Assembly: GCA_014801815.1 (NCBI GenBank) | Contig: JAAVDM010000022.1 | Coordinates: forward strand, 1 to 34,052 | Direction of reading: 5' to 3' | DNA: 34,052 nt | Origin: Bacteroides sp. | GTDB taxonomy: Bacteria > Bacteroidota > Bacteroidia > Bacteroidales > Muribaculaceae | Shown here: positions 2,671-16,695 of the stretch, piece after piece | Numbering within the stretch: position 1 is the stretch's first letter | How the letters are laid out: every line of letters begins with the position of its first letter | Notes under the pieces: model-generated | Database searches by the model: none | The model's input: only the letters and a program-made list of their open reading frames with translations | Told to the model about the DNA's origin: nothing | Program-made: the position numbers and the translations under genes

Positions 2671-3126
2671 TTATTCAGCATTTTCAATCTCTGACTTCAG
2701 AGCTTTCAGAACTTTTAAAAGATTTTCTCTTGATGCCGGATCTTTGAGAGCATTGCGTAAAGGCTTATTCTTCTGCAACTGACGTATAATAGCGTTATAG
2801 GCATCAATTTTAGCTTTTTTATCAGAAAGCAAAGCACTCTGTTCAATCAGCTGATCATCTTCAAAATCTTTTATCTGACGGAAAACAAAATCTTCGTAGA
2901 CTGACCCTCCTTCTTCAGTCTCAAGAGCTACACTTTCCTTTGAAGGTTGATAATGTTCAAATACATCCTTCATGTTCTTAGCTCTGAATCCTTCACGTTC
3001 TTCGTCTGTATTAGGCGCTTGATCAGTAAACTGATCAACATAAAGAGTACGGTTCTGAGGAAACTCTATTATGCCATCCTGTGCATCGGTATCCAGGACT
3101 TTAGTAATGACAGTTTTCTTTGCCAT
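2671..3126 (-). CDS. tssB: TssB, small contractile-sheath subunit
   Basis: This is the small sheath subunit (VipA-like), 151 aa from the ATG at 3126: MAKKTVITKVLDTDAQDGIIEFPQ. The frame is open back to a TTG at 3213 that overlaps the tssH stop. That would add 29 low-complexity Pro/Gln/Asn residues (EPPEQQPENNSTQNN), but the family-like N-terminus begins at MAKKTV, so I chose 3126. The middle is acidic. The C-terminus is a long predicted helix/coiled coil (LSDKKAKIDAYNAIIRQL through LKALKSEIENAE), as expected for TssB. The 79-bp gap to tssH would be translated only if the TTG start is used. It pairs with TssC encoded 11 bp downstream. Confidence 0.88.
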   Translation of the reverse strand: MAKKTVITKVLDTDAQDGIIEFPQNRTLYVDQFTDQAPNTDEEREGFRAKNMKDVFEHYQPSKESVALETEEGGSVYEDFVFRQIKDFEDDQLIEQSALLSDKKAKIDAYNAIIRQLQKNKPLRNALKDPASRENLLKVLKALKSEIENAE

Positions 3127-3205
3127 AGGTGGTATATTGTTTTGTGTTGAATTATTTTCGGGTTGCTGCTCTGGAGGCTCAGTAGTATGTCGTCCCAGTA
3201 TACAA

Positions 3206-5437
3206 TTAATCAATTTCCCAAACTATTTCATTCCTTTCTGCATCATGCTTCATAAAGACAGTATCACCGGCTTTAAGATCACCGGCTATTATCATTTTTG
3301 AAAGGGGGCGTCTGATTTCTTTTCTTATGATTCCCAAGACTGGACGTGCACCGTAGTGGGTATTAAATCCTACCTTAGTAATGTACTGTTTCGCAGTTTC
3401 ATCAATCTCCAGATTTATATCCTGACTGTTAAGTGATTTAATAAGATTCTGAATGTGTATATCAAAAATCTTATATATCATTTCTTTTGTAATAGGAGAG
3501 AAAGGTAGAATCTCAGTGAGACGTGCCATAAATTCAGGTCTGAACTGACCTTGCATTATTTCCAGCATTTCGTCATGTGTGGGAATATGATTTGCTTCGA
3601 AGGATTTGAAAATATACTCACTTCCAATATTAGAAGTAAAAATAATTAAGGCATTAGAGAAATCACCTACACGTCCGAGCCGGTCGTGTAATTTACCCTC
3701 ATCGAGAATCTGTAGAAACAGATCGAATACTGATCTATGCGCTTTTTCTATTTCGTCAAAAAGTACTACTGAATAAGGGTGCTGGCGTATCTGATTTACT
3801 AATAGACCTCCTTCTTCATATCCTACATATCCCGGAGGAGCGCCATAAAGAAGCGCTACCGAATGTTCTTCTTTATATTCAGACATATCGAATCTCAGAA
3901 TTGAAGTCTCATCATTGAAAAGGAATTCTGCAAGAGATTTCGCCAGTTCTGTTTTTCCTGTTCCTGTAGGACCAAGGAAAAAGAAGGATCCGATAGGTTG
4001 CCCTTTCTTATTTAATCCGGATCTTGATTCATATATAGCGTCAAGAATACTTTTGATAGCGTGATTTTGTCCGACTACTCGCTTATGGAGTATAATTTCC
4101 GCGTTAGATAGTTTTTCTCTTTCCTCTGACTGAATGTTACCTATTGGTAAACCGGTCATTGAGGCTACTACATCCTTGACATGCTCCTTATTTATTATAG
4201 GAGGTTTATTATTATCGTTTAATTCAAGATGTATTTTTAAAGACGCCATAGCCCGGTCAAGTAAATCTATGGCAGAAGATGGAAGACTTTTTTCGGGTAT
4301 ATATCTTTTGGCCAGTCTTACGATGTCTTCTGTAACTTTTTCAGATAAGTCAATCTTATGAAAATCACTGTATGACGGTGCTTTAGCCGCAAGTATCTCT
4401 ATGGCTTCTTCTTCGGACGGCTCATCTACTGTAATTTTTTCGCAATACGATATTAGTTCCTTATCTTTTTCGATATCTTTAGTAAATCCATCAATAGAAG
4501 AAGTAAGTATAACCTGAATTTGATTTTTTGCTAATAAGCGTTTGAGTAATGGTAATATTCCGTTAAGTACAGATTGTTTGTCCATTACTCTGTCAAATTC
4601 CTCAATTATGAGAAGTGGTTGCGGATGACAGTGTAATTCGTCACAAACTTTTTTAAATCTATCTTCGATTTCACCCTTATATGATACACCTTGAGATAAT
4701 GTGATTACATCTAATTCTACAGGATAGATATTACTTAGCGAACTGGGTCCTTTATGTTTTATTCTTTTGAGAAATGCCTGTATAAGACTTGTTTTTCCGA
4801 CTCCTGGCTCACCTGTGATTATTATATTTGCTTTATCTTTTCTTGACAGAGCTTCTGTCATATTACGAATTTTAGTGTCAAATCCAATAATTTCATTGTT
4901 AAAATCATTATCTGTAAATACTTTCAGATAAGATGTAATTATGGGTTGAGCTATTGTGATATTTTCATTAATTACAGAGGGAATATCTTGATTATAATTG
5001 GTAAGTTGGAATAAGGTATTAAGAATATTATTATGTGATAGTGGGAGAGTCTTAAGTTGATCGACTGAAAATCCGATTCCAGGAGTTATTACAGCAGCTA
5101 ACAGGGCTTTAAACTCATTATTATTATCAGATTTCTGATTTATTCTTATAGTCTCTTTTATAGTACTTTTAGTTTCTTCCGAAAGTTTTATTTCTCTCAT
5201 AGGATAAACTGATTTCGGAGCTTGACTAACTCTTACATCTGCCCAATCAAGAATATAATAATAATCTGAATTAAGAGTATTTTCTATGAAATCAATTAAA
5301 TCTATATCTTTGTGTAATAATGCACGGAGAATATGAGCCGATTCTATCTGTGGAGAATTATTGTCAAGTGCAAATGATTTTGCTATATGTAGAAAATCGT
5401 TTGGTAGTGTAGAAAGATATTCAATATATTTATTCAT
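3206..5437 (-). CDS. tssH: TssH/ClpV, AAA+ ATPase that recycles the T6SS sheath
   Basis: TssH disassembles contracted TssBC sheath. The 743-aa product has an N-terminal Clp-repeat-like domain (about 1-150). AAA1 has Walker A GEPGVGKTS (209-217) and a Walker-B-like LLIIEEFDR (275-283). A short linker contains TGLPIGNI (428-435). AAA2 has Walker A GPTGTGKTE (489-497), Walker B VVLFDEIEKAH (557-567), FRPEFMARL as the arginine-finger segment and GARP as sensor 2. The linker lacks a ClpB-length middle domain. In AAA1 the segment IEKDKELISYCEK replaces the ClpB-type IEKDxxLERRF, so the paired arginine fingers are missing; AAA2 looks intact. It is the first structural T6SS gene, 32 bp after the nusG-like gene. 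Confidence 0.92.
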   Translation of the reverse strand: MNKYIEYLSTLPNDFLHIAKSFALDNNSPQIESAHILRALLHKDIDLIDFIENTLNSDYYYILDWADVRVSQAPKSVYPMREIKLSEETKSTIKETIRINQKSDNNNEFKALLAAVITPGIGFSVDQLKTLPLSHNNILNTLFQLTNYNQDIPSVINENITIAQPIITSYLKVFTDNDFNNEIIGFDTKIRNMTEALSRKDKANIIITGEPGVGKTSLIQAFLKRIKHKGPSSLSNIYPVELDVITLSQGVSYKGEIEDRFKKVCDELHCHPQPLLIIEEFDRVMDKQSVLNGILPLLKRLLAKNQIQVILTSSIDGFTKDIEKDKELISYCEKITVDEPSEEEAIEILAAKAPSYSDFHKIDLSEKVTEDIVRLAKRYIPEKSLPSSAIDLLDRAMASLKIHLELNDNNKPPIINKEHVKDVVASMTGLPIGNIQSEEREKLSNAEIILHKRVVGQNHAIKSILDAIYESRSGLNKKGQPIGSFFFLGPTGTGKTELAKSLAEFLFNDETSILRFDMSEYKEEHSVALLYGAPPGYVGYEEGGLLVNQIRQHPYSVVLFDEIEKAHRSVFDLFLQILDEGKLHDRLGRVGDFSNALIIFTSNIGSEYIFKSFEANHIPTHDEMLEIMQGQFRPEFMARLTEILPFSPITKEMIYKIFDIHIQNLIKSLNSQDINLEIDETAKQYITKVGFNTHYGARPVLGIIRKEIRRPLSKMIIAGDLKAGDTVFMKHDAERNEIVWEID

Positions 5438-5469: not shown

Positions 5470-6081
5470 TCATTTCTTTTTTGAGGGAATTAGTTCAACG
5501 TTTATAGTTTCTATGGCGAGACGTGCATTCCCCAAAAATTCAATGTTTATAATTATTTCACTCTGTTTTGCGTCAATATAACGTACTTCACCCTCCAGTC
5601 CGGTCAGTTTACCCCTAATGACTCTTACAAAATCTCCTTTCTTATAAGGTTTGGACGTAAAAGTGATTGGTATGTCGGAGTGTCCAAGCATAAAACGGAG
5701 TCGTTCTATCTGATCATTAGGAATTATAGCTAAGGGTTTATTTCCATTTTGCATAGTTAGACCGGCTTTATTGGTCATAAATCTATGTATAAATGGCAAA
5801 GCTACAATTTCTTTACGAACTGTTTCTGTACAATGGATAAAGACTATAGATGGAATTACTACACGGTTAACTTTTGTACGTCTTCCATTCTTCCATAGAC
5901 GATATTCTTCTTGAATTGGTACATAGCAATCATAGCCTAATTTCTTAAGTTTATCACCAACAGCTTTCTCTGTATTATGATTGACGATAGCTATATACCA
6001 TTCACTTTTTTCCATGCCTACGGCGTCGCCAACGCCAATAGGCACTGTCGTAACGTTACTCGTAACTGTATAGGCACTCAT
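5470..6081 (-). CDS. NusG-family (UpxY-like) transcription antiterminator heading the T6SS operon
   Basis: The protein is a 203-aa specialised NusG paralogue. An NGN domain covers about 27-130 (EWYIAIVNHNTEKAVGDKL, then LGYDCYVPIQEEYRLWKNGRR, VVIPSIVFIHC, FMTNKAG). A C-terminal KOW domain covers about 146-176 (YKKGDFVRVIRGKLTGLEGEV). In Bacteroides, UpxY proteins of this build are the first genes of capsule operons and allow RNA polymerase to read through that operon. Here the following genes are T6SS genes, so I infer processive antitermination of the T6SS operon. A second possible start (MEKSEW, ATG at 6015) would remove a 22-residue tail not typical of NusG. No recognisable promoter faces this gene as assembled: the nearest promoters point the other way inside the 6112-6311 inverted-repeat segment. 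Confidence 0.88.
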   Translation of the reverse strand: MSAYTVTSNVTTVPIGVGDAVGMEKSEWYIAIVNHNTEKAVGDKLKKLGYDCYVPIQEEYRLWKNGRRTKVNRVVIPSIVFIHCTETVRKEIVALPFIHRFMTNKAGLTMQNGNKPLAIIPNDQIERLRFMLGHSDIPITFTSKPYKKGDFVRVIRGKLTGLEGEVRYIDAKQSEIIINIEFLGNARLAIETINVELIPSKKK

Positions 6082-6111
6082 CTTACTGAATCCTTTGTTC
6101 CGAAGTCCGCA

Positions 6112-6311
6112 CTCTTAGGTAAGAGATATGGATGAGATATAAGTTGTTAATTTACTGTTTAATATAAATTGTTAAATTTGTATTTTTCTAAACATGATTA
6201 TAATTATACATCTTAATTGACATATTTTTAAAAACTTTTACTTACGAAATAATTTATATATCAGATTTTTTTTATAACTTTGCTTTTAGTTAAGTATCTC
6301 TTACCTAAGAG
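6112..6311. promoter_or_regulatory. Candidate invertible promoter (phase-variation switch) of the T6SS operon, OFF orientation
   Basis: CTCTTAGGTAAGAGATA at 6112-6128 is repeated as its exact reverse complement at 6295-6311, bounding a 166-bp AT-rich segment. Each repeat is itself a dyad (CTCTTA-GG-TAAGAG) with an asymmetric centre, as expected of a tyrosine-recombinase crossover site. Inside, promoter elements TAACTTTG (6275-6282) and TAAATTTG (6173-6180) both read rightward, away from the nusG-like/T6SS operon that begins at 6081. No CAAAnnTA (a minus-strand -7 element) occurs in the segment or between it and the gene. Inversion would put TAACTTTG at 6141-6148 facing the operon, with a leader of about 54 nt. 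A tyrosine recombinase gene lies 132 bp away. This matches known Bacteroides invertible-promoter design; its use for a T6SS is inferred. Confidence 0.78.
6275..6282 (+). promoter_or_regulatory. Promoter -7 element TAACTTTG inside the switch
   Basis: This is a perfect match to the Bacteroidales -7 consensus TAnnTTTG, followed by C as is common. The upstream -33 region is AT-rich with no clear TTG. In this orientation transcription would start near 6288 and run into the hairpin at 6310-6389 and then antisense to the recombinase gene. No plus-strand gene lies downstream, so it makes sense only after inversion. Confidence 0.65.
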
Positions 6312-6389
6312 ATACTTAAAACAATAGTTCCATTAACGTCTAAAAATCAAATTGTTTAGACGTTAATGGAACTATTGTTTTAAGTATCT
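6310..6389. terminator. 35-bp perfect inverted repeat beside the switch (insulating hairpin)
   Basis: The arms 6310-6344 and 6355-6389 are exact reverse complements over 35 bp, with a 10-nt loop (AATCAAATTG). It lies 53 bp beyond the stop codon of the recombinase gene, so it probably terminates that transcript before it reaches the T6SS. It would also stop rightward transcription from the OFF-oriented promoter. No U-tract is present. The outer ten bases (AGATACTTAA) are shared with the right repeat of the switch, where they can instead pair with TTAAGTATCT at 6290-6299, so two mutually exclusive folds exist. Confidence 0.7.
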
Positions 6390-6442
6390 AACTGTAATTT
6401 GGGGATAATAAAAATAAAATGGTGAGGAGAGAGGGGTGGAGG

Positions 6443-7684
6443 TTATTTGAGGGCTTTGAGGATAAGGGAGTTGGCGCGATCGACGACAGAGGTGTCGAGG
6501 GAAGCGAGATAGATGCGGGTGGTCGTTTCGGAATCGTGGCCCATGCCTTCGCTGATGACGCTGATGGGTATGCCTTGCGCTTTGGCTACGGAGGCCCAGC
6601 TGTGGCGGGCGACGTAGAGAGTAAGGGGTACGGTGACACCGACCATAGGTGCTATCTTTTTGAGGCTATGGTTGATGTTGTAGGCGGTGTTGCGGTAGGT
6701 ACTGCGTTCGTCAGCGTCGGGACGGCGTATTATGGGTAGCAGGTATGGGGTGATATTCTCCGGATATTTATCAAGGAGGTGTTGCATGTCGCGGGTCCAT
6801 TCGATGGTGAGCTGTTGGCCGGTCTTGCGTCTGCGATAGATTATGTAGCCCTCGGCAAGATCAATTTTGCGCAGGAAGGCCATGTCGATAAAACTCATGC
6901 CCCGGAGCATGAAACTGAGCATAAACATGTCGCGTGCATAGTCGAGCGTTGGAGAGTTGGAAAGGTCAAGACGTTTTATTTTCTTGATGATGGCAAGCGG
7001 AAGAGCGCGTTTGACGGTTTTGTCGACACCGGTATAGACATGACGGAATGGATTGTGATTTTCGATGATTTCATCTTCGACAGCACGGTTATAGACGGCA
7101 CGGAGTATACGTATATAAAAGGAGATGGTGTTAGGTGCTACACCCCGGTTCTGATGCCATGCCTGATAGGCTTCAAGCACATCGGAGTTGAGTGCATCAA
7201 GCATAAGGTCGTTGTTGGGCAGACGTGAGAGCTGGCCTGTGTCGTATGTATCAAGAAACTTACGGAAGCTGTTGAGCGTGGCGGTGTAAGTCTCGGCAGT
7301 GCGTGTCTTGCCGTTCTGTCGAAGACGTATGATTATATTCTGCATAAAATTAAATAGGGTGTATTGGTCCGCGTAGCGCTCGAATTCGTCGATTACGTCT
7401 TCAGGGGTATAGACAATACCGGCACGGTCCAGACGGCCGATTATGCGTGTGAGTCGGTCAACATCGCGGCGTATGCACTCGCGTACGGACTTGACGATGT
7501 GGCGTCGCTCGTTACGGTGTCGGTCGATTACTACCAAGGAGCGTTTTTCGTCCCACTCTGATGGAAATACCTGACACTCTGAAAGCAGGACCTTAACCTT
7601 ACGCTCATGCATGATCTGATAGTAGACAGTGCCCTCGTGGTCAGCGACAGTCGAGGGACGGAACTTTACTTTTATCGTAGCCAT
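6443..7684 (-). CDS. Tyrosine recombinase (Bacteroidales phage-integrase/invertase family)
   Basis: The protein is a 413-aa site-specific recombinase. It has an N-terminal arm-type domain (about 1-95), a SAM-like core-binding domain (about 108-212, FNFMQNIIIRL, TAETYTATLNSFRKFL, NTISFYIRILRAVYNRAV) and a catalytic domain. Visible catalytic residues are Arg261 (LRGMSFIDMAFL), Lys287 (RRRKTGQ), Arg360 in YVARHSWAS with the Bacteroidota-typical Tyr at the first HxxR position, His383 (GMGHDS) and the nucleophile Tyr392 (TTRIYL). All are present, so it should be active. Its gene ends 132 bp from the inverted repeats at 6112-6311, which makes it the likely enzyme that flips that segment. Its base composition looks GC-richer than the adjacent T6SS genes. 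Alternatively it could be a genomic-island integrase, but no attachment duplication was found. Confidence 0.93.
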   Translation of the reverse strand: MATIKVKFRPSTVADHEGTVYYQIMHERKVKVLLSECQVFPSEWDEKRSLVVIDRHRNERRHIVKSVRECIRRDVDRLTRIIGRLDRAGIVYTPEDVIDEFERYADQYTLFNFMQNIIIRLRQNGKTRTAETYTATLNSFRKFLDTYDTGQLSRLPNNDLMLDALNSDVLEAYQAWHQNRGVAPNTISFYIRILRAVYNRAVEDEIIENHNPFRHVYTGVDKTVKRALPLAIIKKIKRLDLSNSPTLDYARDMFMLSFMLRGMSFIDMAFLRKIDLAEGYIIYRRRKTGQQLTIEWTRDMQHLLDKYPENITPYLLPIIRRPDADERSTYRNTAYNINHSLKKIAPMVGVTVPLTLYVARHSWASVAKAQGIPISVISEGMGHDSETTTRIYLASLDTSVVDRANSLILKALK

Positions 7685-7868: not shown

Positions 7869-8159
7869 ATGACAAAAGCAGAGATAGCAAGTGAGATAGC
7901 CAAGACCACAGGTCTTGACAAATCAGCTGTAGTCACAGTAATTGAACAGTTCATGAGCGTGGTAAAGGATAGTCTTTCCCGTGGTGAACATGTTTACCTG
8001 CGCGGGTTCGGCAGTTTTATAATCAAGACACGTGCTGAGAAAACAGGCCGAAACATTTCCAAGAACACAGCTCTTATCATACCGGCTCACAATATTCCAG
8101 CTTTTAAGCCGGCTCCGGCTTTCAAGGAGGAAGTAGCCAAACTTGATACAGAAGCTTAA
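7869..8159 (+). CDS. HU-family nucleoid DNA-binding protein
   Basis: The protein is a 96-aa HU/IHF-type dimeric DNA-bending protein. The helical N-terminus MTKAEIASEIAKTTGLDKSAVVTVIEQFM is followed by VYLRGFGSF and the DNA-binding beta arm with GRNISKNTALIIPAHNIPAFKPAPAFK, which is the Bacteroidota HU signature. Length is normal for the family. It is a monocistronic gene with its own promoter and a strong terminator, divergent from the recombinase gene. HU-type proteins commonly assist site-specific inversion by bending DNA, so a role at the nearby switch is possible. It could equally be the housekeeping copy. Confidence 0.95.
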   Translation: MTKAEIASEIAKTTGLDKSAVVTVIEQFMSVVKDSLSRGEHVYLRGFGSFIIKTRAEKTGRNISKNTALIIPAHNIPAFKPAPAFKEEVAKLDTEA

Positions 8160-16500: not shown

Positions 16501-16695
16501 TAAGTAGCTCTTAAAAATTAATGAACATATAAAACGTAGTTATTTTTGAGGCGATTCGGGTGCGGAGCGAAGGAGAATACTTCAGTATTCGACTGAGTGA
16601 CAAGCACGAAGCGGCCAAAAATAACAAGTTTTATTGTTCAAGATTCAAAAACTGTATCTCAAAACATATATCGTTTAATTTTTAAGAGCTACTTA
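16501..16695. mobile_element. 195-bp MITE-like foldback element, copy A
   Basis: The ends are perfect 20-bp terminal inverted repeats: TAAGTAGCTCTTAAAAATTA at 16501-16520 and its complement at 16676-16695. Inside lies a second dyad (GTTATTTTTG 16539-16548 with CAAAAATAAC 16616-16625) and at the centre a small hairpin (GAATAC...GTATTC, 16575-16590), so the whole element can fold on itself. There is no coding capacity. A second element of exactly the same length and plan lies at 26511-26705, and a deleted relative at 21460-21539. It is inserted upstream of the ompA-type promoter. Confidence 0.75.

Follow-up and report, generated by a model that had tools for sequence, protein, structure and literature searches.

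The invertible promoters of the Bacteroides capsule operons (Krinos 2001; Coyne 2003, Mpi) are summarised in a 2025 review (PMC12632263), which in its accessible parts also enumerates the molecules that inversion affects in this group, without the type VI secretion system (T6SS) among them. As far as the available text goes, capsule promoters have inverted repeats around the promoter, UpxY as product of the first gene and an orientation that sets ON or OFF, and the locus described below shares this plan. It differs in its cargo, a T6SS, and in its neighbouring gene, which encodes a tyrosine recombinase, whereas the capsule promoters have Mpi. Mpi is a serine recombinase. B. fragilis reportedly also has tyrosine site-specific recombinases (Tsr) with invertible promoters, said to have been described by Weinacht in 2004. 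Likened to our case by description only, the Tsr enzymes share with it a tyrosine recombinase thought to invert promoter segments; they act before outer surface proteins, whereas the recombinase in our DNA stands before a contact-dependent weapon.

In 2022 Yan, Hall and Jiang described antibiotic resistance genes under invertible promoters (IP-ARG), and section 7 of their paper names T6SS operons, in one phrase, among the contents of variable regions that lie downstream of such promoters in class-3 elements (PMC8748976, accessible parts). In both cases new cargo has captured a capsule-type promoter together with a local invertase and upxY. The IP-ARG cargo is resistance genes on integrative elements, with no T6SS control described in those parts, whereas here the segment precedes UpxY-TssH in several families. 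The T6SS loci GA1, GA2 and GA3 of gut Bacteroidales (PMC4714493; PMC8102008; PMC12694586, a preprint whose accessible text reports, for the Muribaculaceae species CAG-485, a T6SS element) have Bacteroidales T6SS genes in common with ours and were compared through the papers' text alone. In the available portions of that text, PMC4714493 and PMC8102008 make no mention of a promoter or of UpxY (the word "invertible" occurs once in PMC8102008, on assembly), and PMC12694586 makes none of inversion or phase variation. The open-licence literature, as far as its text was accessible, yielded no other statement of inversion controlling a T6SS. Heritable ON/OFF control of a T6SS is found in the sci1 system of enteroaggregative E. 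coli, which has a Fur/Dam-methylation switch; that switch is epigenetic and works without DNA inversion. The combination of invertible promoter, UpxY and local recombinase is already known, and its T6SS version appears to be well supported by the comparisons given below.

The window, the whole stretch of DNA that was analysed, is the entire contig JAAVDM010000022.1 (34,052 nt; contig C22 of genome G000) of a Bacteroides sp. of the Muribaculaceae. It contains a left, operon-side inverted repeat (6112-6128) and a right, recombinase-side one (6295-6311), both predicted recombination sites, which are complementary at 17 of 17 bases and enclose 166 bp (6129-6294), as a sequence-only reading of the window had stated. 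The left repeat has the core TAGGTA between CTCT and AGAG. The segment is intergenic and, as in a Bacteroidales invertible promoter (inverton), exact inverted repeats flank a short stretch. A chance origin of the repeats is ruled out by simulation: when first-order Markov copies were made of the 34-kb window, none of the 100 held an exact inverted repeat of at least 15 bases at a spacing of 50-500 bp (one of 13 bases arose in 23 of the 100), and 5000 simulations confined to the local 600 bp never reached a repeat of 17 bases.

The right repeat sits within a 30-nt palindrome (6290-6319), which the sequence-only reading had missed, together with a perfect 35-bp hairpin (6310-6389; fold -50.2 kcal/mol, z -14.5) in the gap between the segment and the recombinase gene. 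The hairpin is possibly an insulator or terminator. A conserved hairpin insulator is unsupported: among the eight loci folded, a hairpin of this kind was found in the window only, and L063, L084 and L104 are nearly without structure there.

Also missed was a second, unrelated 21-nt inverted repeat (16501-16521 / 16675-16695, 153 bp apart), whose arm is partly common to the repeat of another locus in the genome (L036; 6603/6678) and which has the look of a dispersed element and not of a promoter switch. By analogy the repeats before the T6SS operon could belong to a dispersed repeat or mark where a mobile element ends. This fits the pair at 16501-16695 and does not fit 6112-6311, which is intergenic, carries a relative of the promoters at two polysaccharide-type loci and is found in seven other species too, again directly in front of UpxY-TssH; for the T6SS segment we regard it as very improbable.

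As Bacteroidales-type -7 consensus we took TAnnTTTG. Between 6082 and 6442 exact matches are limited to TAAATTTG (6173-6180) and TAACTTTG (6275-6282, 12 bp from the right repeat), both on the + strand and pointing away from the operon. None points toward it in 6082-6442 or in the four intra-operon gaps examined, and the nearest operon-facing candidate is TATTTTTA, with one mismatch, at 6416 on the - strand, outside the segment; the earlier claim that both good -7 elements face away holds with this proviso. The two elements are called promoters by their match to the -7 consensus alone, without a demonstrated good -33 element. Inversion would bring TAACTTTG to 6141-6148, where it would face the first start codon (6081) from a distance of about 60 bp, upstream of upxY. 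We consider it likely that the 166-bp segment is an invertible promoter switching the T6SS operon, that the adjoining recombinase acts on the 17-bp repeats and that the assembly has caught the segment in the OFF orientation.

The operon, on the - strand, begins with the gene of a UpxY-family NusG-like antiterminator (5470-6081; NF033644, 120.4 bits against a cut-off of 100). It continues with a TssH/ClpV-type AAA ATPase (3206-5437), which has Clp-type domains, scores below the NCBIfam cut-offs for TssH and ClpB and is named by synteny with T6SS loci; a sheath protein without a family above cut-off, placed as TssB by its position only, which is kept between TssH and TssC (2671-3213); the TssC sheath protein (1271-2659; PF17541, 6e-130); two TssD/Hcp proteins (817-1221 and 265-750; both PF17642); and the N-terminal part of VgrG (1-258), cut by the contig end, whose first 84 residues show 61% identity to L093 VgrG. 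The remainder of vgrG matches at the very end of contig C39, which we infer from the split gene to continue the operon after C22. The ORFs listed across a further 19 kb of C39 (L155) all read in one direction and include genes for gp25/TssE (33.5 bits against a cut-off of 27.2, with no single stretch under the E-value limit), a DUF4280 protein, an E1-like ThiF protein and a sub-cut-off E2-like match. With these the Bacteroidales T6SS set of TssC, TssD, VgrG, gp25/TssE and TssH (the last by synteny) is present. The earlier description of a whole T6SS operon at the switch stands as to the operon; the window itself covers only its first 6 kb or so, and the rest apparently lies on the other contig. 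As a side observation, the stretch 3444-12863 of L155 (C39), within the T6SS run, holds the ThiF gene, the E2-like match and a weak JAB match, and a sub-cut-off E2-like match is also found in a Barnesiella T6SS locus (L055, 18222-18893).

The gene adjoining the segment on its other side encodes a tyrosine recombinase (6443-7684, - strand; PF13102, PF00589, PF17293), the predicted local invertase, and not a serine invertase of the Mpi type, a statement that concerns this neighbour gene only. It is an open reading frame lying 131 bp beyond the right repeat. R261, K287, R360, H361, H383 and Y392, to which we assign the catalytic roles, are invariant in all eight aligned recombinases, three of them partial, as is Tyr357, which stands where HxxR has its first His. 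The gene had been called intact from the sequence, and these residues agree with that. Divergent from it lies an HU/IHF-like gene (7869-8159), which could encode an accessory bending protein or be there by coincidence.

A T6SS (PF17541) was found in 13 of the family's 347 genomes, counting that of the window. Of the 12 others, four carry repeats before UpxY-TssH (G346, G300, G154, G112) and seven do not, one of which (G008, L035) has a 13-base repeat of A and T only, without CTCT/AGAG arms, upstream of its T6SS genes; the contig of G333 is too short. From named genomes the best 80 of 191 TssC relatives were kept, and ten were set aside with TssH missing or with less than 1 kb before it. A UpxY-like gene is found in 41 of the 70 assessable loci, and seven have exact repeats of at least 18 bases within 1.5 kb upstream of TssH, in every case before a UpxY-like gene. 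These seven are the four family loci and those of Candidatus Cryptobacteroides merdavium (L053), Barnesiella sp. An22 (L055) and a Tidjanibacter MAG (L084). Elsewhere in the 70 loci such repeats occur only three times, with a fourth in one of the ten set aside. A related recombinase lies within 3 kb upstream in five of the 70, all among the seven with repeats (Fisher P 1.7e-6); the available stretches of L059 and L093 contain none, the contig of L059 starting 95 bp before the repeat.

The segment is not a feature of all Bacteroidales T6SS, an idea rejected by its absence from 63 of the 70 assessable loci and from all 17 loci of an order-wide sample. In that sample 18 of 393 genomes, the window's included, have a T6SS; the 17 loci, several of them short stretches, belong to 16 of the 17 others (G664 left out), and three of them have a 13-base repeat without CTCT/AGAG arms. 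In a TssC tree made by a quick method (80 rows, many open forks, one of the 80 loci dropped out, set-aside loci scored as segment-free), one group of nine loci contains six of the eight that bear the switch, and the switch label requires 5 changes against 7.8 when shuffled, one of them forced by well-supported branches; a single origin of the T6SS switch and several origins would both fit. Control of a T6SS by an invertible promoter looks like a recurrent Bacteroidales arrangement. The sequence-only reading had transferred the capsule logic (repeats around an outward-pointing promoter-like element, a tyrosine recombinase and a NusG-like first gene) to a T6SS, and the seven other species support it, as do two oppositely oriented polysaccharide-type loci in the same genome.

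Within 400 bp upstream of T6SS-UpxY loci without repeats, an operon-facing -7 element is present in 28 of 33 and an away-facing one in 11 of 33; with repeats the figures are 2 of 7 and 6 of 7. Counting the window, the operon-facing element is found in 2 of 8 loci with repeats as against 28 of 33 without (P 0.002). The forward element is rare at repeat-bearing loci and usual elsewhere, so that OFF amounts to the absence of this usual element. These counts bear on the idea that the segment matters little and that the T6SS is transcribed mainly from elsewhere, by read-through from the recombinase gene, which is codirectional with the operon, or from an unrecognised promoter, the -7 motifs being consensus matches only and one-mismatch motifs existing besides. 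The usual presence of an upstream forward element at loci without repeats argues against it, as do the hairpin standing between recombinase gene and segment and the lack of an exact operon-facing -7 element in 6082-6442 and in the intra-operon gaps examined, and we hold it to be improbable.

The same genome harbors eight segments of this repeat family, the window's included (on C15, C19, C22, C30, C34 and C56 and two on C58). With the region as DNA query, two further promoter-plus-repeat stretches were retrieved, on C15 and C56, which are 80% identical to the window over about 60 bases (6257-6321 and 6258-6316, respectively) and are bounded by the same type of repeat. In them TAACTTTG points at the operon (L006 and L007), opposite to the window. 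The first gene after the C56 promoter encodes a NusG-domain protein 43% identical to the window UpxY; that on C15 is a weak UpxY relative only (26% over 120 residues, no Pfam match). Read by eye from their translations, the genes that follow look like polysaccharide genes. The window's recombinase has two paralogues in the genome (69% and 66% identical), each with a repeat pair beside the 3' end of its gene, both OFF, one segment preceding a kinase-VWA-PP2C gene set and the other genes without Pfam match. A pattern search added the repeat pairs on C19, C30 and C58.

Sites were searched as CTCT, 4-7 bases and AGAG, in pairs 130-300 bp apart, which left out the C19 pair as too wide; T6SS loci entered the count via their exact repeats and genus loci via similarity to the C34 segment or recombinase. 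The central bases vary among loci (37 distinct first-site cores in 53 pairs of equal length, orientation not unified), and within a locus both copies are exact complements in 48 of the 53 pairs, against 2.2 expected with shuffled partners (2000 shuffles, maximum 8). The 48 comprise 8 T6SS pairs, 6 from the window's own genome and 34 in 33 of 49 loci of its genus; the remaining five are alternative registers (2) and extra sites (3). In the window the core is the same in both repeats (TAGGTA/TACCTA). Because tyrosine recombinases need identical crossover cores, matching cores within loci are what is expected of a working system.

The segment might also invert mainly through a related recombinase acting in trans, given the two others with 66-69% identity in the genome and the several segments of the family that have no close recombinase relative beside them. 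The cores mostly differ between segments, and at T6SS loci the local recombinase is always accompanied by repeats (5 of 5); we judge the in-trans route to be rather unlikely and keep to the adjoining enzyme.

Across species, seven T6SS loci are OFF (the window, L053, L055, L063, L084, L093 and L104) and one is ON (L059), the call for L063 being the least certain, with two further -7-like elements inside its segment that face the operon. In the genus of the window 65 of 111 genomes matched the C34 segment, and of the 29 best other loci, which were read, 17 have repeats beside a related recombinase (14 OFF, 3 unclear, none ON); repeats were not found in the other 12, five of which have less than 800 bp of sequence after the recombinase. 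In nine of the 14 OFF loci the match that had retrieved them covered only the recombinase end, and selection by the OFF-oriented query is therefore unlikely. Segments without an adjoining recombinase point in both directions (toward a neighbouring gene start in, e.g., L192, L203 and L206, away from one in L189, L197 and L201) in a set of 20 loci, 16 with repeats, one of which, L194, stands beside a recombinase and is OFF. The genus of G154 is represented here by three genomes, two with a T6SS, both OFF. Altogether the recombinase-adjacent segments are OFF in 23 of 23 classifiable cases (6 T6SS loci, 2 more in the window genome, 14 genus loci and L194), with 3 more unclear. The census points to a strongly OFF-biased switch, not an even mixture, and a population would be mostly OFF. 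In a post hoc look, 4 of 20 places have a contig end no more than 200 bp from the matched sequence, versus 0.47 expected, which hints at mixed orientations and is not relied on, as repeats also break assemblies.

A run of 23 OFF without an ON is also what a relic would give, a segment that once inverted and is now locked OFF, with a silent or seldom used T6SS. A dead switch should decay, and the repeats are identical within a locus while the cores differ between loci; moreover the recombinase gene is open with all its active-site residues and the T6SS genes in the window are open, which makes the relic an unlikely explanation.

In the switch that we favor, the neighbouring tyrosine recombinase would recombine the two 17-bp repeats, and in the ON orientation TAACTTTG would fire into upxY. 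UpxY would then probably act as antiterminator and carry the polymerase through the long operon, over the genes for TssH, the TssB-position protein, TssC, two Hcp and VgrG to the further genes on the second contig. As the sequence-only reading proposed, only part of the population would fire. A fair coin does not account for the OFF bias next to recombinase genes, which may come from the cost of expression or from feedback of the outward promoter onto the convergent recombinase gene; in the window the hairpin at 6310-6389 could weaken such feedback. As a tentative model, possible though less probable than not, the switch might restore itself: in OFF the promoter would damp the recombinase by antisense transcription, in ON it would fire the T6SS and free the recombinase, with a quick flip back, so that a small minority of cells would pulse its T6SS briefly, by a capsule-derived device that T6SS loci across Muribaculaceae, Barnesiellaceae, Rikenellaceae and relatives would have in common.

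If the proposed switch is real, the heritable and reversible control that gut Bacteroidales use for capsules extends to a costly contact-dependent weapon. Isolates that are T6SS-positive by genome could then be silent, and the results of competition experiments would depend on orientation. Through the UpxY gene the choice of capsule might be linked to expression of the weapon. A testable prediction is that recombinase-adjacent segments are almost always OFF.

Several observations were made beside these. Among the 70 assessable loci, 34 have a UpxY-like gene directly before TssH yet no repeats (e.g., L064-L069), many of them Prevotella-type records, and antiterminator-led T6SS operons may be common. 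In the window genome, L036 (C34, 1-4492) has a recombinase and a repeat-flanked promoter-like element, OFF, before kinase, VWA and PP2C genes, a set that to us is reminiscent of TerY-P triads. In L135 (C58, 3671-5510) the promoter-like element faces a gene for 347 amino acids with a sub-cut-off NusG match, whose upstream part is overlapped by a weak recombinase similarity (20-24%). Single sites of the repeat family with complementary cores occur on two contigs (L156, C28:44639; L157, C63:63353), with no exact partner repeat of at least 11 bases with such arms within 600 bp of either. Finally, in L133 (C19, 3731-4257) a segment of the invertible type lies between two divergent, homologous DUF3575 genes, and its promoter could serve the one gene or the other as an either/or switch.
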